Source of the DNA: Prochlorococcus sp. AG-418-I20
GTDB taxonomy: Bacteria > Cyanobacteriota > Cyanobacteriia > PCC-6307 > Cyanobiaceae
DNA length: 64,000 nucleotides
Reading direction: 5' to 3'
Assembly: GCA_003214175.1 (NCBI GenBank)
Contig: QCLZ01000001.1
Location: 248,001 to 312,000, forward strand
Shown here: positions 4,284 to 44,622 of the stretch, piece by piece
Layout of the letters: the number at the start of each line of letters is the position of its first letter
Numbering within the stretch: the stretch's first letter is position 1
Translations under genes and position numbers: made by a program
The notes under the pieces: model-generated
The model's database searches: none
Told to the model about the DNA's origin: nothing
What the model saw: the letters and a program-made list of their open reading frames with translations, nothing else

Positions 4284-5072
4284 TGATCTCTGAGAGCAAA
4301 TAAAATTCCATTGTCTAGAGATTGTTTTGCTCCTTCTCCAGGAATTAAATTCATTTTCTAATTTGTATGTGCATAGATTTGAGATGTCTATATTTGAATT
4401 AGGGATGTTCTCATTTAAAAGTTGTCTAAAGGCAGATCTTTTGAGATCAAGTTGATTTAAGTTTTGCTCTTTCAAGTGATTTGAATCATTAAAACAAAGA
4501 TCTTTTTCAGTTTTATTCAAATTGACCGTTATTTTCTTGTTTTCGGCTGTTCTATAAAATTCTTTGAGTGTCATTTTATCAACTAGATAATGTTCTACCG
4601 ATATCGATGGCCCTATTGCAACAAGTAAGTCATCTCTAGATGTCCCTAAATTATCGAAAATTTTAACAAGATTTTTTATTATTTTATTTTCTAAACCTTT
4701 TCTTCCACAATGTAAGGCTGCGACATTTCTTGTCCTTTTATCTGCAAAAAATATTGGCATGCAATCAGCTGTGTAAACCCATAAATTTTGATTGCATTTA
4801 TTGCCAACTAGACCATCTGCATCAGTCTTACTCGACTCTTGCGAGTGTGATCCAAAAACTACCACATTACTGTGAATTTGATTAGAAACACAATTTATGT
4901 AATTTTGATTAAAGTGATTTCCTAATAATTTAAGAAATTTCTTAGAGCTTGACTTCGTAAAGTATGCATGTTTGAAATTATATTGACTAAGGATAGGTGA
5001 TGAATAATACTCAAATTTTTTGTTTTGAATAAAAATTTCAGCTTTCGAAAAATATATTTCTTTGTAGTAAAT
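4275..5072 (-). CDS. pgeF: YfiH/PgeF-type laccase-domain protein (DUF152), probable ATT start
   Basis: Member of the multicopper-oxidase-like YfiH/YlmD family, for which purine nucleoside phosphorylase/adenosine deaminase activity and a peptidoglycan-editing role have been reported. Zinc-ligand motifs are visible: His in QIHSN, Cys in ADCMPIFFADK, His in ALHCGRKG; the C-terminus has SWRRSKTISRQ. No ATG, GTG or TTG exists in frame before a GTG at 4865, yet 69 homologous-looking codons precede it, including the QIHS ligand. I therefore place the start at ATT (5072-5070), which has AGGAG (5084-5080) 7 nt upstream. That gives 265 residues, a normal family length. It lies 22 bp after the Tab2-like gene and is probably cotranscribed. 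Confidence 0.75.
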   Translation of the reverse strand: MYYKEIYFSKAEIFIQNKKFEYYSSPILSQYNFKHAYFTKSSSKKFLKLLGNHFNQNYINCVSNQIHSNVVVFGSHSQESSKTDADGLVGNKCNQNLWVYTADCMPIFFADKRTRNVAALHCGRKGLENKIIKNLVKIFDNLGTSRDDLLVAIGPSISVEHYLVDKMTLKEFYRTAENKKITVNLNKTEKDLCFNDSNHLKEQNLNQLDLKRSAFRQLLNENIPNSNIDISNLCTYKLENEFNSWRRSKTISRQWNFICSQRSLT

Positions 5073-5094
5073 AGTTCCTGCTCCTGAGCTGAAT

Positions 5095-6000
5095 TTATGA
5101 AATTAATTCAATATCTCTCAATATCCAGAATCCTGCAAACTTTTCGATGTATGGCGTTGACTGTATTGAAATAAATTGATAACCAAAAGAATTTTTTTTA
5201 TTATCTAAAAACTTTGTACTTAAGATATTTGCATCTTTCTCTGGTAAATCTGTTACCAGCCACTTATCGTCTTCTGAAGCTTCGAGGATGAGTTGGTTCT
5301 TACGTATAGTTAATTTAATTGGTTCTAAACAACTGAACCATGCAGAAAGTGCTAGGGATCTATCTTTGCTAAAAAGTCTTAATCCTGGGACTAAGTTATT
5401 ATCATTTAAATTTTGGTGAATTGGGAAAATATCTCCAAATTCCATAGGCCAATTTTCTGCTGATTTTAATTCGCCAATTGATATTTCAGATATAGTTAAA
5501 GCGTCACCTCTAACTGCTTCTGGTAAAGGTTGAGGGGAGTTTTCCATTTTGGAAGTAAAAGTAGGAGCTAGAACTCCTCTTACATAACCTTTTTCCTTTG
5601 GATAAATCTCTTTTTCAAGAAATTCAATTCTATCGAATAAAGCATAAGTTCTTCTACTAATAAGAGCTTCAATACTTGTCGCCTCAAGTGATTTCTTAAT
5701 GATCGATTTCATTGACGATCTCCAAAATCTAACTATTGAGGGCTTTGCCCAGCCATCTTTTTTAGCATCATTAATTGCTTCATTTAGTGCTTTTGTAAGC
5801 CAAGCTGAATTAACTTCATTGGCAGGACATTTTTTATTCCAAAGAAAAACATCTTCTGTCTTATAACTTCTTGTGGAGCATATAATTAACTCCCACCTTT
5901 TTTTTCCATTTGATTCAATAATGGGTCTTGAGTAAAAGTCTAATTCCCAATTTGAAATTTTTAATTCAAGACTTGGTTCTGTTTTATTATTAATGTTCAT
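5095..6000 (-). CDS. Tab2/Atab2-like RNA-binding protein (DUF1092)
   Basis: A 301-residue homologue of Chlamydomonas Tab2/Arabidopsis Atab2, proteins needed for translation or assembly of photosystem reaction-centre subunits. The N-terminus has the family block NWELDFYSRPI followed by KRWELIICST; the middle has RFWRSSM and SRRTYALFDRIEFLE; the C-terminal half has PEAVRGDALT and FLDNKKNSFGYQF. The ATG at 6000 overlaps the end of the S1-domain gene by 4 bp (ATGA-type coupling), so translation is probably coupled. The role in cyanobacteria is inferred from plastid homologues. Confidence 0.85.
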   Translation of the reverse strand: MNINNKTEPSLELKISNWELDFYSRPIIESNGKKRWELIICSTRSYKTEDVFLWNKKCPANEVNSAWLTKALNEAINDAKKDGWAKPSIVRFWRSSMKSIIKKSLEATSIEALISRRTYALFDRIEFLEKEIYPKEKGYVRGVLAPTFTSKMENSPQPLPEAVRGDALTISEISIGELKSAENWPMEFGDIFPIHQNLNDNNLVPGLRLFSKDRSLALSAWFSCLEPIKLTIRKNQLILEASEDDKWLVTDLPEKDANILSTKFLDNKKNSFGYQFISIQSTPYIEKFAGFWILRDIELIS

Positions 6001-7211
6001 TTATCTTGTTCTTTTTTATCGAAGAGTGCTTTAGTTTTTAGTGCTCTCTCTGGGGCTTCTTGCATGACTTTTTGCTTATCAATGATTAATTCTCCAGCAG
6101 AGTTCTCTAATAGTGCTGTATTTAGACCAATGCGCCCTTTTTCAAGATCAATTTCAGATATTAAAGCTTTTATAATTTCCCCTTCTCTAAAAATCTCTCG
6201 TAAAGAACGAATGGATCCATTTGTTAGTGATGATTGATGAAGGAGTCCACTAGCTCCTCCTAAATCAATAAAGAAACCATATGGTTTTACTGCTAAAACT
6301 TCTCCTTCAATTAATTGACCCAATTTTAAACTGGTCAGTTTGGAGACTAATGATGCTTTCTTTTCAGAGAGGACTAATTTTCTGGATTCTGGATTCACCT
6401 CAAGAAAAGCTACTTTTAAAGTTTTGCCAACTAAAGATTGATGATCTTGACCATCTTCAAGTTGGGATCTTGGGATGAATCCTCTCAATCCATCTACATC
6501 GCACGTGAGACCACCTCTATTAAATCCATTAATTAAAACGTTAATTAATTCTCCATTTTTTGCCGAACTTGATACTTTCTCCCAACTTTGCCTAAGAATT
6601 AATGCCCTTGCACTAACTGTTACCATCCCATCAGCATTTTGTTCTTTGATAACCAAAACTTCCATTTCAAGTCCTATAGAAAATTTTTCTTTAAAATTAG
6701 TTATAACTCCTAAACAACATTCTTTCTTTGGCATAAAACCAGGTGCTTTTCCACCAATGTCAATATATAGACCATCACTTTCGACTGCTATAACTTTACC
6801 TGAAATTGTTTCTCCAGTAGCCCCAATTGGCTCATTTGCATTTAAAGCCTCCAAAAAAGCACTTTCATCAAAATCGAATTCGTCTACTGTTCTTTCTAAT
6901 TGAAAATCTGTGTTTTGCTCAGAAAAATTAAAGGGTCTATTTAAGTCTTTCTGAGAACTATCAAAAGTTTTATTATTTTCATTATTTTCCTCAATGTCTT
7001 TTGTTGGTTCGTCTTTGATTATATGAGGTTTGATTGCGATATTTTCGTTTTTAATTTCTTCTTTCGGTTTAGTTTTCTCATTCTGTATTTCTTGAGATTC
7101 TTTTTGAGTATCTTTCTTGCTTATATGAAGAACCTGAAGAGGTTTCTTCAAATCACCTTTATTGCCCTTTTGTTGGATGTTATTTTGGGCATTTTTATCA
7201 CTGACTCCCAT
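5997..7211 (-). CDS. rps1b: S1 RNA-binding domain protein (ribosomal protein S1 homologue B)
   Basis: A 404-residue protein with a long charged, low-complexity N-terminus (about residues 1-125, rich in K, E and N), followed by three S1 OB-folds: GETISGKVIAVESDGLYIDIG (about 132-200), INVLINGFNRGGLTCDVDG (about 215-285) and IEGEVLAVKPYGFFIDLGG (about 297-365). Cyanobacteria typically carry a second S1 paralogue, Rps1b/Nbp1, described as binding ssDNA/RNA; this fits that class better than the main RpsA because of its size and long acidic-basic N-terminus. It heads a minus-strand unit with the Tab2-like gene and pgeF. Confidence 0.85.
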   Translation of the reverse strand: MGVSDKNAQNNIQQKGNKGDLKKPLQVLHISKKDTQKESQEIQNEKTKPKEEIKNENIAIKPHIIKDEPTKDIEENNENNKTFDSSQKDLNRPFNFSEQNTDFQLERTVDEFDFDESAFLEALNANEPIGATGETISGKVIAVESDGLYIDIGGKAPGFMPKKECCLGVITNFKEKFSIGLEMEVLVIKEQNADGMVTVSARALILRQSWEKVSSSAKNGELINVLINGFNRGGLTCDVDGLRGFIPRSQLEDGQDHQSLVGKTLKVAFLEVNPESRKLVLSEKKASLVSKLTSLKLGQLIEGEVLAVKPYGFFIDLGGASGLLHQSSLTNGSIRSLREIFREGEIIKALISEIDLEKGRIGLNTALLENSAGELIIDKQKVMQEAPERALKTKALFDKKEQDK

Positions 7212-7277
7212 CGTAGGTAAAATAAGAATAATTAATTATTAACATACTCTAAATCTTAGTACTCAAAATTTAAATTA

Positions 7278-8072
7278 ATGAACTTTAAACCAATACCTAA
7301 TAAATTTGAATATTTAAATTGGCAAGAAATTGAGAATATTGCAAAAGATAAAAGATCAACAATAATTTGGCCTTTCGGTGCTGTTGAGCAACATGGACCG
7401 CATTTGCCTCTTGCTACAGATAGTATTTTTGTTGATGAAATAATTAGCGAAGTTTTTAAATTAATCTCTTCCGATATTCCAATAAAAAAACTTCCTACGC
7501 AATATATTGGGTTTTCTCCAGAACATAAGGGTTTTGCTGGGACAATTTCCCTTTCTTCAAATTTAATAACCTCAATGATAAAGGAAGTTGGAGGTCAATT
7601 GTCTGATATGGGTTTTAAAAGACTGATATTGATTAATGGACATGGAGGTCAAATCGCACTACTCAACACAGCGGCAAGAGAGCTAAGGAGTTCCGCTCCT
7701 GGTATGGCAGTTTTTCCTTGCTTCTTGTGGAGTGGAGTTAAAGGATTAAATGAATTGTTAACGAAAACTGAGATCGAGGATGGGCTTCATGCTTCTTTAG
7801 CTGAAACAAGTTTAATGCTCGCTTTAAAACCTGAATTAGTGGGAGATGAACGTCCATATGAGGGAGTTAAAGGACAGATCCCAGAAGGTTGGAGTCTAGA
7901 GGGAAATGCACCTACTGCTTGGCTTACTGAAGACTTAAGTAAATCAGGTGTTATAGGGGATAGCAGAGGAGCAAATGAGTCTTTAGGAGAAAAATTAAAG
8001 GAATTATTGATTAATCATTGGTTCAAATTGATAATGAATCTGATGCAATCGGATTGGCCAAATAAACCTTAA
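7278..8072 (+). CDS. creatininase family amidohydrolase
   Basis: A 264-residue member of the creatininase/formamide hydrolase family. The metal-binding signature is intact: WPFGAVEQHGPHLPLATD (Glu, His and Asp ligands) near residues 34-51, LINGHGGQ near 119-126, and a Glu ligand in ASLAETS. Related proteins act on creatinine, on formamides in riboflavin/F420 or mycofactocin pathways, and on other cyclic amides. The substrate here cannot be told from sequence, and the cyanobacterial member has no creatine-related neighbours. Divergent from rps1b by 66 bp. Confidence 0.88.
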   Translation: MNFKPIPNKFEYLNWQEIENIAKDKRSTIIWPFGAVEQHGPHLPLATDSIFVDEIISEVFKLISSDIPIKKLPTQYIGFSPEHKGFAGTISLSSNLITSMIKEVGGQLSDMGFKRLILINGHGGQIALLNTAARELRSSAPGMAVFPCFLWSGVKGLNELLTKTEIEDGLHASLAETSLMLALKPELVGDERPYEGVKGQIPEGWSLEGNAPTAWLTEDLSKSGVIGDSRGANESLGEKLKELLINHWFKLIMNLMQSDWPNKP

Positions 8073-8156
8073 ATAAAGTTAGGTAAAAAATGTGACTTAA
8101 CAATTGATACTATTTTCATGATATTTAAATAAATTCACTATAATAATGTAATATTC

Positions 8157-8912
8157 ATGCATAATGAACTAAAGATTACTGACATGCAAACACTAGAATC
8201 AAATAAAAAAACTACTGAGGAATCCATTAATACGAATCCCTTGAATTTGCCAGACTTTACTACAGATTCTTATAAAGATGCATACAGCAGAATAAACGCC
8301 ATTGTTATTGAGGGTGAACAAGAAGCTCATGACAATTACATTTCAATCGCAACGTTAATACCAGATGAGTTAGAAGAGTTAACTAAATTGGCAAGAATGG
8401 AAATGAAGCATAAAAAAGGTTTTACTGCCTGTGGAAGAAATTTGGGTGTAGTAGCTGATATGGAATTTGCTAAGAAATTCTTTTCTGAGTTACACGGTAA
8501 TTTTCAAATTGCTTTGGAAAAAGGAAATTTAACAACATGTCTCTTAATACAAGCTATTTTAATCGAAGCATTTGCGATCTCTGCTTATAACGTTTATATA
8601 AGAGTTGCCGATCCTTTTGCAAAAAAAATAACTGAGGGAGTAGTCAAAGATGAATATCTTCATTTAAATTACGGTCAAGAATGGCTTAAAGAGAATTTAT
8701 CTACTTGTAAAGAGGAATTAATGGAAGCAAATAAGGTTAATCTTCCTTTAATTAAAAAGATGTTGGATCAAGTAGCAGATGACGCATCAGTTTTAGCTAT
8801 GGACAGGGAAGAATTAATGGAAGAATTTATGATTGCTTATCAAGATACATTGATGGAAATAGGTCTCGACAATAGAGAGATAGCCAGAATGGCGATGGCT
8901 GCAATTGTTTGA
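8157..8912 (+). CDS. ado: aldehyde-deformylating oxygenase (alkane synthesis)
   Basis: Ferritin-like di-iron oxygenase that converts fatty aldehydes to alka(e)nes plus formate, using O2 and reductant. Iron ligands are in place: Glu in EGEQEAHD, ExxH in EMKHKKGF, Glu in LIEAFAISAY and ExxH in KDEYLHLNYG. It is 251 residues from the ATG at 8157; a second ATG at 8184 (MQTLESN) gives 242 residues, closer to other cyanobacterial ADOs, so the first nine residues are uncertain. It stands 108 bp before aar, its substrate supplier, an order typical for cyanobacteria. Confidence 0.97.
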   Translation: MHNELKITDMQTLESNKKTTEESINTNPLNLPDFTTDSYKDAYSRINAIVIEGEQEAHDNYISIATLIPDELEELTKLARMEMKHKKGFTACGRNLGVVADMEFAKKFFSELHGNFQIALEKGNLTTCLLIQAILIEAFAISAYNVYIRVADPFAKKITEGVVKDEYLHLNYGQEWLKENLSTCKEELMEANKVNLPLIKKMLDQVADDASVLAMDREELMEEFMIAYQDTLMEIGLDNREIARMAMAAIV

Positions 8913-41535: not shown

Positions 41536-42585
41536 TTGAAGACTTTAACCATAATAAAACCTGATGACTGGCATTTACATTTAAGAGAAGGTCTTGTATT
41601 AAAAAATATCATTCATTTTACTTCCGAATTTTTTGGAAGAGCTATCGTTATGCCAAATACTAAAACTCCCATTACATCTGTTGAAAGCGCTATCTCTTAC
41701 AAAAAATCTATTGTTGAAGCGTTACCAGAAAGTTCTAAGTTCGAACCACTCATGACAATGTATCTTACAGATGAGACTGATAAAGGAGAACTAATAAATG
41801 GGTTTAAAAATAATGTTTTTTTCGCAGCAAAATTATATCCTGCAAATGCTACAACAAATTCCATTCATGGAGTTAGGAAAATAGAAAATCTATATAAGAT
41901 CTTTGAATTAATGCAAGATTCTGGCATACCTCTTTTAATTCATGGGGAAGTGACTGATTCTGAAGTAGATGTATTCGATAGGGAAGAAGTTTTTATAGAT
42001 AGAGAACTTTCCCAAATAACAAAAAGATTTCCAAAATTAAAAATCGTTTTAGAACATATAACCACCTCTTATGCAGTAGATTTTGTTCAAGAAAATAATA
42101 TTGGAGCTACTATAACTCCACATCATTTGCATATTAATAGAAATGCAATGTTTTTTGGAGGCTTAAATAGTGATTTTTACTGCTTACCAGTTGCAAAGAG
42201 GGAAAAAAATAGAATAGCTTTAAGGAAAGCTGCAACAAGTGGTAAAGAATGTTTTTTCTTAGGAACTGATTCTGCTCCACACCTCAGAGAGTGGAAGGCT
42301 TTTTGTGGTTGTGCAGGTATTTTTAATTCGCCAGTTGCAATAGAAAGCTACTTAACAGTATTTGAAGAGGAAAATGCTCTAGATAATTTTGAGAAGTTTG
42401 CAAGTTTGAATGGCTCTAATTTTTATAATGTACCCCTAAATAGAGAAAAATTAAAATTAGTTTCTAAACCTAATAAAATTAGAGAATTTATTGATGTTAC
42501 TGACAAAAAAAATATTATCGGACAAATAAAACCATTTCATGCAGGTGAAACTTTAAAATGGAAAGTAGAAGGGATAGTAAATTGA
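41536..42585 (+). CDS. pyrC: dihydroorotase, class II
   Basis: Closes carbamoyl-aspartate to dihydroorotate in pyrimidine synthesis. 349 residues of the PyrC (E. coli-like) group: metal motif DDWHLHLREG at the N-terminus, AAKLYPANATTNS, LLIHGEVTD, LEHITTS, TPHHLHINRN, and FFLGTDSAPH with the catalytic Asp. TTG start at 41536. Confidence 0.97.
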   Translation: MKTLTIIKPDDWHLHLREGLVLKNIIHFTSEFFGRAIVMPNTKTPITSVESAISYKKSIVEALPESSKFEPLMTMYLTDETDKGELINGFKNNVFFAAKLYPANATTNSIHGVRKIENLYKIFELMQDSGIPLLIHGEVTDSEVDVFDREEVFIDRELSQITKRFPKLKIVLEHITTSYAVDFVQENNIGATITPHHLHINRNAMFFGGLNSDFYCLPVAKREKNRIALRKAATSGKECFFLGTDSAPHLREWKAFCGCAGIFNSPVAIESYLTVFEEENALDNFEKFASLNGSNFYNVPLNREKLKLVSKPNKIREFIDVTDKKNIIGQIKPFHAGETLKWKVEGIVN

Positions 42586-42624
42586 TAAATTAAATTCAAT
42601 CCAAGCATTTATTAAAAGGATAAA

Positions 42625-42662
42625 TTTCAGGATTTTTCTTGGTTAAATATGTTTTTTTAGCT
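42625..42662 (+). repeat. tRNA-Leu leader repeat, outer partial copy
   Basis: ATTTCAG..TTTTTCTTGGTTAAAT..TTTAGCT resembles the sequence before the intact tRNA-Leu; TTTTTCTTGGTTAAAT is identical at 42633-42648 and 44171-44186. No tRNA part here. Confidence 0.5.
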
Positions 42663-42696
42663 TTGATTTTCGTGAAATTTCAGGAATTAAGTAACT

Positions 42697-43071
42697 CTAA
42701 CTTACCTCATCACACATATTTTGCAGAAGGGCATTCTGCATAAATATATTTTGAGGTATTTCATTAATCTCAAACGCATTTACCTCAAAGCTATCGCTAT
42801 TTGTATCAACTTTAAATTGTAATAGCATATCTACAGGTTGTTCATAATATGTAATTTTACCTTCTATATTTACATAATCTTCACCATCTGTTGCTACAAA
42901 GGCTTCCCACTTAGGGCTTTGCACATAATTATTTACCATTTTTTTTACAGTTGCTTGTGGACAAAAGTTCATAACGCCATTTTGTACTAAAGAAAGTCTA
43001 GAGTCTGTTGAACTACATCCTACAAACAAAAAAGATGAAATAGTTAACAAGGCGGGCAGCTTTAATCTCAC
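42697..43071 (-). CDS. small lipoprotein
   Basis: 124 residues with a signal peptide and lipobox: LLTISSFLFVGCSS, Cys at about 19. The mature part is a small polar domain (residues 25-124) with no recognised family; it contains three more Cys. It is preceded and followed by repeats that also flank the next gene, so it may belong to an acquired segment. Confidence 0.7.
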   Translation of the reverse strand: MRLKLPALLTISSFLFVGCSSTDSRLSLVQNGVMNFCPQATVKKMVNNYVQSPKWEAFVATDGEDYVNIEGKITYYEQPVDMLLQFKVDTNSDSFEVNAFEINEIPQNIFMQNALLQNMCDEVS

Positions 43072-43136
43072 AATTTTACTTAAAAACCAATAAATAACTT
43101 ACCATTTAATACGGCACCTATTCATTAAAAGTTTAA

Positions 43137-43238
43137 ATATTCCAATTTTTTCTAAGTTAAGTGTTGCTTTAAGCTACCATTAAATTTCACAAATTCCTTT
43201 GGGAGCGTTTCGGAATTATAGACGTGCCGGACTTAAAA
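43137..43238 (+). pseudogene. truncated 5' half of tRNA-Leu with its leader (direct repeat, left copy)
   Basis: A degenerate copy of 44164-44265. The leader includes GCTACCAT and CAAATTCCTTT, and the tRNA part (43201-43238) runs GGGAGCG...GACGTGCCGGACTTAAAA. It matches the intact tRNA-Leu from acceptor stem to anticodon loop, then stops. Mismatches in the acceptor stem and D arm mean it cannot give a working tRNA. Confidence 0.8.
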
Positions 43239-43401
43239 ATTACCAAATAATAAATTTACCTGAGTAGAGTATATAAAAGCGATTAGTTAAAAGCTATTCG
43301 CTTTCTTAATTAATAACCTATCCAAATACGCAGGATTATCCAATATATATCTAGCGCACTTTTAAAACTCTAAAACGTGGTCTCTCTAGAGAAATTCCAT
43401 A
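43239..43401. other. non-coding stretch after the tRNA remnant
   Basis: Rest of the 330-bp gene-free interval 43072-43401 whose left part is the leader repeat. It contains one hairpin, AAAGCGA (43276-43282) with TCGCTTT (43298-43304), which may end a transcript; I see no gene here. Confidence 0.4.
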
Positions 43402-44001
43402 CTATGAAATAAGAAAAAGTATTATCCCAGCAACAAAACCTGAATTGTGACCAACTATGCTAACCCCTCCTGAAAAATTCCATATTTGTCCAATAATGGT
43501 TAAAACTATCATTGACTGCTGAACTTGATAATTCTTGTAAATATTTATGGGGATTCCAAAGAACCTGTTTTTGCCATAAATACCACACAATAGAAGAAAG
43601 GCGTCAATCCCATAGATAACTCCACTGAAGCCTAAAGCTGCACTATTGGGATTGGAAACAACTCTCTCCCAAATCCACATTAATAAAGTACTTGATGGTA
43701 TCAAAAATATTGTCAATAGGAGAAAAAGATAATTATTTCTCATCCCTAACCTTTTGAATATTGCTCTTGCGACTACAATTCCACCAAGATTGAGAAGTAG
43801 GTGTTCTGCATCAGCATGTATGATTGTGCTCGTAAAAAATCGGTGAGGTTCATATTGCATTATTTTTGACCAAAATACCCAGTTATTTTTTTCAATAAGG
43901 CCAAAAATATCAGTCATCAACCAAATAGCTATTAAAGCACTTGAGATAAGTAAGTATTGATAATCAATGAGGTCAATATTGTCTAAGTTTTTCTTCACCA
44001 T
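43402..44001 (-). CDS. rhomboid-family intramembrane serine protease
   Basis: 199 residues, five to six membrane helices. Family marks: RFFTSTIIHADAEHLLLNLGG (TM with conserved His/Asn), catalytic Ser in AALGFSGVIYG near residue 125, and GHNSGFVAG, which supplies the catalytic His near 187. Substrate unknown. It lies alone between the broken tRNA-Leu copy and the intact one, on the opposite strand, with leader repeats on both sides. Confidence 0.8.
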   Translation of the reverse strand: MVKKNLDNIDLIDYQYLLISSALIAIWLMTDIFGLIEKNNWVFWSKIMQYEPHRFFTSTIIHADAEHLLLNLGGIVVARAIFKRLGMRNNYLFLLLTIFLIPSSTLLMWIWERVVSNPNSAALGFSGVIYGIDAFLLLCGIYGKNRFFGIPINIYKNYQVQQSMIVLTIIGQIWNFSGGVSIVGHNSGFVAGIILFLIS

Positions 44002-44163
44002 GCGAAAAAATGAATATTTATATTAAAACTATTTTGTTAATTCTAAGCAATATTCTGTTTTCTCCGTTTTGACTTAAAAGACTATGTTTATTTATTGACA
44101 TGATTAAAATAAAGGTCATTACTAATTATCTAAGGCTTCTGTAGCTTCACGAAAAGTGTACAT

Positions 44164-44227
44164 ATTTCAATTTTTCTTGGTTAAATGGGTTGCTTTCAGC
44201 TACCATTAGATAGCGCAAATTCCTTTT
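44164..44227 (+). repeat. tRNA-Leu leader repeat, right copy
   Basis: Leader of the intact tRNA-Leu, containing TTTTTCTTGGTTAAAT and GCTACCAT, similar to 43137-43200. Probably includes the tRNA promoter. Confidence 0.65.
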
Positions 44228-44313
44228 GGGAGTGTGGCGGAATTGGTAGACGCGCCGGACTTAAAATCCGTCGAGCGATTTAGCTCGTGGGGGTTCAAGT
44301 CCCCCCACTCCCA
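44228..44313 (+). tRNA. trnL-TAA: tRNA-Leu (anticodon TAA)
   Basis: 86 nt. Acceptor stem GGGAGTG (44228-44234) pairs with CACTCCC (44306-44312), discriminator A at 44313. D-loop AATTGGTAGACGC, anticodon loop CTTAAAA with TAA, long variable arm GAGCGATTTAGCTC typical of Leu, and T arm GGGGGTTCAAGTCCCCC. CCA is not encoded. No intron is present. Confidence 0.97.
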
Positions 44314-44388
44314 TTATTTAATAATTTTTTAGTTATTACGATAACTTCCAATAATTGTTATGTTTTAACTAAGCAACAAGAAATCTAA

Positions 44389-44622
44389 ATGGAAAGTTTT
44401 TTTAATAATTCATTCGCTACTTTAATTGCTTATATTGGGATTATTTCTGTTTATTTATTGGTTATTCCATTAATACTTTTTTACTGGATGAATAATAGAT
44501 GGAATGTTATGGGCAAATTTGAAAGATTAGTAATTTATGGACTTGTATTTCTTTTCTTCCCAGGTTTAATTTTATTTTCTCCATTTTTAAATCTTAGATT
44601 AAAAGGAAGTGGTAAAGGGTAA
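44389..44622 (+). CDS. ndhL: NAD(P)H dehydrogenase (NDH-1) subunit L
   Basis: 77-residue membrane protein of cyanobacterial/plastid NDH-1, which drives cyclic electron flow and CO2 uptake. Two helices (about 12-32 and 47-65) with the conserved [14 protein letters not shown] loop between. Overlaps the next gene by 14 bp, so the two are co-translated. Confidence 0.92.

Follow-up and report, generated by a model that had tools for sequence, protein, structure and literature searches.

Why should a decayed copy of the leader and first half of a tRNA-Leu gene stand ahead of the intact tRNA-Leu(TAA) gene in the genome of Prochlorococcus sp. AG-418-I20, with a rhomboid protease gene between the two? 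The window (the whole stretch of 64,000 nucleotides that was analysed) carries the following features at this site, given as positions within it and worded according to the reading developed below:

41536..42585, plus strand: pyrC, left flank of the attachment site (ORF and PF01979); anchor of the comparison with relatives
42586..42668, plus strand: decayed ancestral leader, apparently the oldest remnant of the left junction, its tRNA half lost; begins at the pyrC stop, like empty sites (77-81% over 62-84 nt, E 1.5e-13)
42697..43071, minus strand: lipoprotein gene (ORF), 124 aa, cargo of the older insert
43121..43199, plus strand: degenerate leader that came with the older insert, 84.6% over 78 nt to leaders of host type (E 5e-19)
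about 43200..43238, plus strand: nt 1-40 of a broken tRNA-Leu, its 5' half, 85% identical to the intact gene; bounds the newer insertion on the left
43239..43372, plus strand: left arm of a T7-like cyanophage attachment site, stopping at the point where a phage would start its RNA polymerase gene (matches P-SSP7 and an IMG/VR contig)
43402..44001, minus strand: rhomboid protease gene, 199 aa, cargo of the newer insert (PF01694, E 1.5e-11)
44125..44149, plus strand: degenerate right-arm box with 3/10 mismatches to ATCTAGCGCG, at the box position of relatives (alignment)
44150..44226, plus strand: host-type tRNA leader, probably brought by the newer insert (94.7% over 75 nt to empty-site leaders, E 2e-30)
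44227..44314, plus strand: intact tRNA-Leu(TAA) (ARAGORN; Rfam RF00005, E 6.4e-12)
44389..44622, plus strand: ndhL, right flank of the attachment site (PF10716)

A preliminary description of this DNA had noticed a degenerate leader and tRNA-Leu 5' half ending in the anticodon loop, the same leader again before the intact tRNA, and the rhomboid gene on the opposite strand between the copies; all of this is borne out. The left copy (about 43121-43238) aligns with the intact one at 81% over 118 bp (E 1.3e-23), its tRNA part stopping at the end of the anticodon loop (nt 40), and the remaining three matches to the leader/tRNA region in the 1.5-Mb genome are of 22-45 bp each. A third leader fragment, said to precede the lipoprotein gene, is likewise real and is longer than reported (42586..42668); the gene, however, is on the minus strand, so that its 3' end faces the fragment. 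This stretch matches the relatives’ pyrC-to-tRNA spacer with 63.5 bits, against 38.3 bits for the best of 200 shuffles, and does so from the pyrC stop onward, thus occupying the place that the ancestral leader holds in empty sites; judged by its sequence, it is the ancestral leader in place and no chance 16-mer. The outer tRNA half is missing in the window and its leader alone remains. The window holds two stacked inserts, an older one with the lipoprotein gene and a newer one with the rhomboid gene, which narrows the ‘one or two insertions’ first envisaged to two. The intact tRNA-Leu(TAA) would then be composite, with a 5' part from the insert and a native 3' part.

The same site was compared across the genus, with ndhL (matched in 204 of 266 genus genomes) as the anchor. 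Loci were the regions upstream of the ndhL matches listed, together with 80 named records titled Prochlorococcus or uncultured Synechococcaceae. The fetched ndhL matches, a subset of the 204 genomes with identical sequences counted once, make up a sample of 144 loci chosen without regard to occupancy; 18 further occupied loci (one of them also an ndhL match) were fetched through arm-model matches (see below), and since these were chosen by that match, frequencies are taken from the 144-locus sample only. We left out L023, which duplicates L107; L021 and L088, both from a single record; L332 and L313, whose stretches lack an intact tRNA (the provirus discussed below is L313); and L118 and L146, in which pyrC is out of reach.

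The majority state is the empty one, with pyrC beside a single tRNA-Leu, as the preliminary description had anticipated for strains lacking the insertion: in 116 empty loci the pyrC-to-tRNA gap is bimodal, at 96-103 bp (n=110) or 176-180 bp (n=6), against 348-3552 bp in the occupied loci (n=46). About a fifth of the sample (28/144 loci) is occupied. The expectation that an insertion brings a new tRNA 5' half and cargo while the old half decays also fits the relatives, 23 of these 28 loci keeping the old tRNA 5' half, followed by varied cargo, a fresh leader and the intact tRNA. In other strains, repeats of this kind enclose different cargo, and a gene order and pair of repeats shared by all strains, which would have spoken against an insertion, was not found. 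On a pyrC/ndhL tree of 161 loci (L014 was too short) occupancy switches state no fewer than 31 times, 14 of the switches being forced by starred branches, compared with a mean of 39.6 for shuffled labels on the same tree; occupancy is thus more clustered than shuffled labels, and the loci are not all independent events. The window’s five nearest rows on this tree are all empty.

The leftover at these loci is the 5' half, as had been pointed out for the window, and its end is sharply placed: 37 of 40 tRNA halves end at nt 40-45, at the anticodon loop or shortly beyond it, and the other three at nt 55. Stacking recurs, with two recognisable tRNA halves in each of three further loci (L259, L315 and L327). 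Five of the 46 occupied loci showed no tRNA half and no phage left arm.

What lies immediately after the half points to the source of the inserts. The window’s tRNA half and the arm that follows it align with positions 5862-6032 of the T7-like cyanophage P-SSP7 (76.6% over 169 bp, E 6e-26), where the phage attachment site sits between int (4896-5768) and the gp1 RNA polymerase gene (6039-8375), and the arm matches an IMG/VR contig still better (80.5% over 133 bp, E 2e-31). The earlier suspicion that the site holds a remnant of a tRNA-targeting element was sound, then, and the identification of the left end of the newer insert as that of a T7-like cyanophage is new here. Of the 46 occupied loci, 41 carry a phage left arm, and an arm of at least 60 bp after tRNA nt 40 was seen in none of the 116 empty sites (0/116). 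The left arm has a phage as its best match in 15 of 40 cases, and the inserts may form a lineage of their own. Models of two arm types matched at least 26 and at least 18 of the 266 genus genomes, and at least 42 genomes together; the matches number at least 47, at no fewer than 45 places, every one of which is at pyrC and a tRNA-Leu half (from coordinates and from the loci read). These searches score the best 13-17 candidates per genome, so that weak ones can escape; within that limit, the left-arm model found the window’s own genome alone among 201 genomes of 59 genera in the wider family. On the viral side, a pattern that joined the tRNA half to the hairpin arm matched 22 viral contigs and a scan with the tRNA half alone returned 102 stretches, the two scans together giving 88 viral loci, of which 77 were attachment sites by reading.

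The arms themselves vary. Common to the inserts is a hairpin after the tRNA half, the window’s type also having TATCCA repeats. In 24 sequences of the hairpin stem, the cells changed on both sides (21), the paired cells and a covariation score were each equalled in 0/500 shuffles, whereas two other covariation measures were equalled in 205/500 and 146/500. A terminator scanner run over the window called no terminator. With two of five covariation measures unsupportive and no call by the scanner, the idea that the hairpin is a terminator was dropped, and we claim no such function for it. Many phage attachment regions (among L383-L470) read as a promoter-like stretch, the tRNA half, the hairpin and then the RNA polymerase gene, an arrangement from which a short tRNA-half RNA could be made.

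Right ends are of two kinds: 16 of the 46 occupied loci have a phage-type right end, of up to about 220 nt, and the other 30, the window included, have a host-type leader. In the window the end is host-like leader with no phage promoter, and two patterns for this end matched no viral contig, nor did exact patterns of the insert ends. A control for right arms failed, all 116 of 116 empty leaders matching a ‘phage right arm’; we blame L401, a host-phage junction that contains host leader, and the left-arm control alone is therefore used. No phage arm was recognised in the older window insert. These ends also bear on the simplest account, that the tRNA leader was duplicated segmentally and then decayed, with no mobile element involved. 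Such a duplication would indeed yield degenerate leader copies, but the clustering of half ends at the anticodon loop, the strain-specific cargo and the presence of phage arms, with their P-SSP7 match, make it improbable in the extreme.

Traces of phage genes accompany the arms in some relatives. N-terminal stumps of the RNA polymerase gene occur in 10 of the 46 inserts (one weak, E 0.03) and C-terminal integrase stumps in 6; five inserts have both, with bacterial genes between them, and stumps of either kind occur in none of the 116 empty sites. The window has no integrase or RNA polymerase stump; its insert lacks the integrase and lytic genes, and is for that reason a remnant and not a provirus. 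By contrast, host contig L313 (G034:C40:14500-25258) runs from host genes through pyrC, which is read in two frames, then past the tRNA half and the arm into 8.6 kb that reach the contig end. Of seven P-SSP7 proteins tried, five have matches of 82-91% within the first 5.6 kb of this: the RNA polymerase, SSB, endonuclease, primase and exonuclease. Neither int nor gp0.7 was found on the stretch. From its sequence, L313 is an apparent T7-like provirus at tRNA-Leu in one Prochlorococcus genome. The predicted proteins of IMG/VR contig L401 are the same, judged by eye, and the two are thus probably the same DNA. Malmstrom and colleagues are reported to have described, in 2013, a single Prochlorococcus cell that carried part of a prophage.

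Between these ends the genes vary by strain. PspC occurs in 8 loci. Six proteins form a family named TPR-like by eye, six are surface proteins akin to a YadA-like one, and five are outer-membrane barrels; DUF3721 occurs five times, and there are also MORN, DUF805 and 2OG-Fe(II) oxygenase families. Each Pfam name comes from a single member. The Pfam scan covered the window’s two cargo proteins and eight others (PspC, DUF3721, outer-membrane barrel, MORN, DUF805, 2OG-Fe(II) oxygenase, a YadA-like anchor and one without a family). The window’s own cargo has few kin. Homologs of its rhomboid in other genus genomes are at most 47% identical, and in the 29 homolog loci read tRNA-Ser(CGA) is nearby in 23 and tRNA-Leu adjoins in none; a rhombosortase model scored the protein below the model’s cut-off. 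Across 101 genus genomes, its own included, the lipoprotein has two other matches only, both at 26%. Near-copies of ATCTAGCGCG bracket the cargo, one on each side, in many of the inserts whose right end is of the host type. Four cargo proteins had no match in 50,697 phage records, and insert ORFs matched the 88 viral loci solely where the ORFs read the attachment region itself.

Cargo at a tRNA gene in this genus brings to mind the tycheposons, which Hackl and colleagues reportedly presented in 2023 as Prochlorococcus transposons that sit at tRNA genes and carry cargo. Could the inserts be cargo-only relics of that family? Genus, tRNA target and cargo agree, and 5' halves (nt 1-41 and 1-45) are left behind as well by an element at tRNA-Ser(TGA) that we take to be a tycheposon. 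However, the hallmark tyrosine recombinase was not found in the inserts. In 30 loci read for the family of the element’s 404-aa recombinase, tRNA-Ser(TGA) adjoins in 26, there is no tRNA in 4, and tRNA-Leu adjoins in none. The left ends of the inserts match cyanophages, their comparison with the tRNA-Ser(TGA) element being by eye only. The same family’s pattern matched 8 times in viral contigs, with no relative among the matches. Since both the target tRNA and the ends differ from those of the tRNA-Ser(TGA) element, we rejected the link to tycheposons, which we regard as very unlikely.

Several other elements of the genus may be recorded here. The tRNA-Ser(TGA) element at L340:5480-13945 (G232) encodes a 190-aa PF00589 recombinase, primase-polymerase and VapE-like proteins, and the 404-aa protein, which has no Pfam match and is taken for a second recombinase; it has left two 5' tRNA pieces. 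Islands at tRNA-Pro(TGG) (L338, L339, L350 and L351) have small tyrosine recombinases and both 5' and 3' tRNA halves, as if elements inserted on either side. The window’s genome has one PF00589 match. A recombinase-like gene at positions 2-727 of the window, on the minus strand and running off it, lies about 43 kb from the ndhL/tRNA-Leu site; genes of this kind (389 aa in L347:9482-10651) occur in many genus genomes and are about 24% identical to the 404-aa protein, a distant relationship.

Taken together, we hold it highly probable that the window inserts are gutted integrations of T7-like cyanophages at tRNA-Leu(TAA). The direct support lies in the site, the crossover region, the stacking, the newer insert’s phage arm, the gene stumps in relatives, and the empty and differently filled sites. 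The tRNA-Leu(TAA) gene between pyrC and ndhL is the attachment site, and we propose crossover in the anticodon loop by a phage-type tyrosine integrase that presumably comes from the phage. Incoming DNA would supply its own leader and tRNA 5' half, so that the tRNA gene stays whole, and the old leader and 5' half would be displaced outward and then decay. This genome would have gone through two rounds, the lipoprotein-holding insert first and the rhomboid-holding insert second. The phage interior was probably lost rather than never there, integrants may survive only after loss of the lytic genes, and cargo may arrive either with the inserts or into them.

A reading that overlaps with this one would have the inserts be active cassettes without an integrase (satellites). 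These would bear a copy of the T7-like cyanophage attP, depend for movement on a phage integrase acting in trans or, once inserted in tandem, in cis, and so spread their cargo from cell to cell. Several inserts are more alike than their hosts’ pyrC genes (L324/L329, 92.4% over 1256 bp vs 79.4%; L249/L328, 93.6% over 1341 bp vs 87.6%; L242/L323, 94.8% over 386 bp vs 87.5%), yet many other insert pairs are less alike than their hosts. The inserts are small (248-2649 bp in the 34 one-half loci), and one of them, L114 of AG-424-P23, upstream of tRNA-Leu, is free of cargo, its left and right arms joining at a single ATCTAGCGCG. PspC-type cargo occurs with both kinds of right end; it has a match in 10 of 101 genomes, and all six with at least 75% identity carry the PspC gene at the tRNA-Leu site. 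Against such cassettes, a profile of 59 phage integrases finds only C-terminal stumps in the inserts (in 3 of 46), and a search of the viral contigs for a phage genome whose two tRNA halves enclose a cassette came up empty: of 66 with integrase and RNA polymerase on the two sides, none holds one, and the distances from these genes to the tRNA half are 94-132 and 24-149 bp. One contig with neither gene, L435, has a second tRNA copy (81%) 10.7 kb away. Active cassettes thus strike us as a live possibility, albeit one that we would not favour over gutted integration.

Integration of the kind that we propose has an experimental precedent. According to Shitrit et al. 2021 (PMC8776855), tRNA-Leu is where both P-SSP7 and S-TIP37 integrate. 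Mutants of S-TIP37 showed that int and attP are required, attP matching the first half of the tRNA; integration is transient, and stable lysogens were not found. The same authors mention remnants of phage integration, call the benefit of the integrase in T7-like cyanophages uncertain, and put integration from metagenome junction reads at 1.6% for one main group (PMC8776855). The window shares with that process the target gene, the first-half-of-tRNA attachment sequence and the left arm to just before gp1. It differs in that integration is transient there, while the ends seen here are passed on by inheritance and enclose bacterial genes in place of those of the phage; the integrase-side right end of the phage is also absent, with host-type leader in its place.

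Having att-type ends but no phage interior, both window inserts are CIME-like. As defined in PMC5704250, CIMEs are att-flanked, lack integrase and transfer genes, accrete in tandem and derive from ICEs or IMEs. The inserts resemble them, on that description, in their att flanks (a tRNA half on the left, the intact tRNA on the right), in having no integrase or transfer genes (the latter judged from ORF lists) and in tandem accretion; they differ in parentage, a T7-like phage instead of an ICE or IME, and in the replacement of the tRNA 5' part; their mobilisation would be hypothetical. Tycheposons share genus, tRNA target and cargo with the inserts, in which, by contrast, no recombinase was found, the tRNA is another one and the left end is that of a cyanophage. 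Flexible islands of Methylophilaceae (PMC10872708) have repeats of part of a tRNA at the island edge, as here, but the repeat is of the last 20 bases of tRNA-Lys and the islands reach 42 kb. In titles and abstract openings of the literature on tycheposons, Prochlorococcus islands, P-SSP7 integration, cyanophage prophages, CIMEs and attP satellites we found no description of such inserts; an earlier mention in Hackl et al. 2023 is possible.

Phage left ends are inherited at 23 of the 144 Prochlorococcus loci, about one in six, mostly with bacterial cargo. Such inherited ends would mean that integration leaves a lasting change in the host, and would offer a direct way to test the purpose of the integrase. 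Estimates of integration from metagenomes may include remnants, as reads across the junction of host, tRNA half and arm would come from these as well as from true proviruses. More tentatively still, and with the odds in our view rather against it, we speculate that the integrase of these ‘lytic’ T7-like cyanophages might keep open a port for gene exchange at tRNA-Leu(TAA). Small phage-ended cassettes without an integrase could go in there, pile up and travel with these phages from one Prochlorococcus cell to another, so that single genes would reach a host for which few other means of gene transfer are known.
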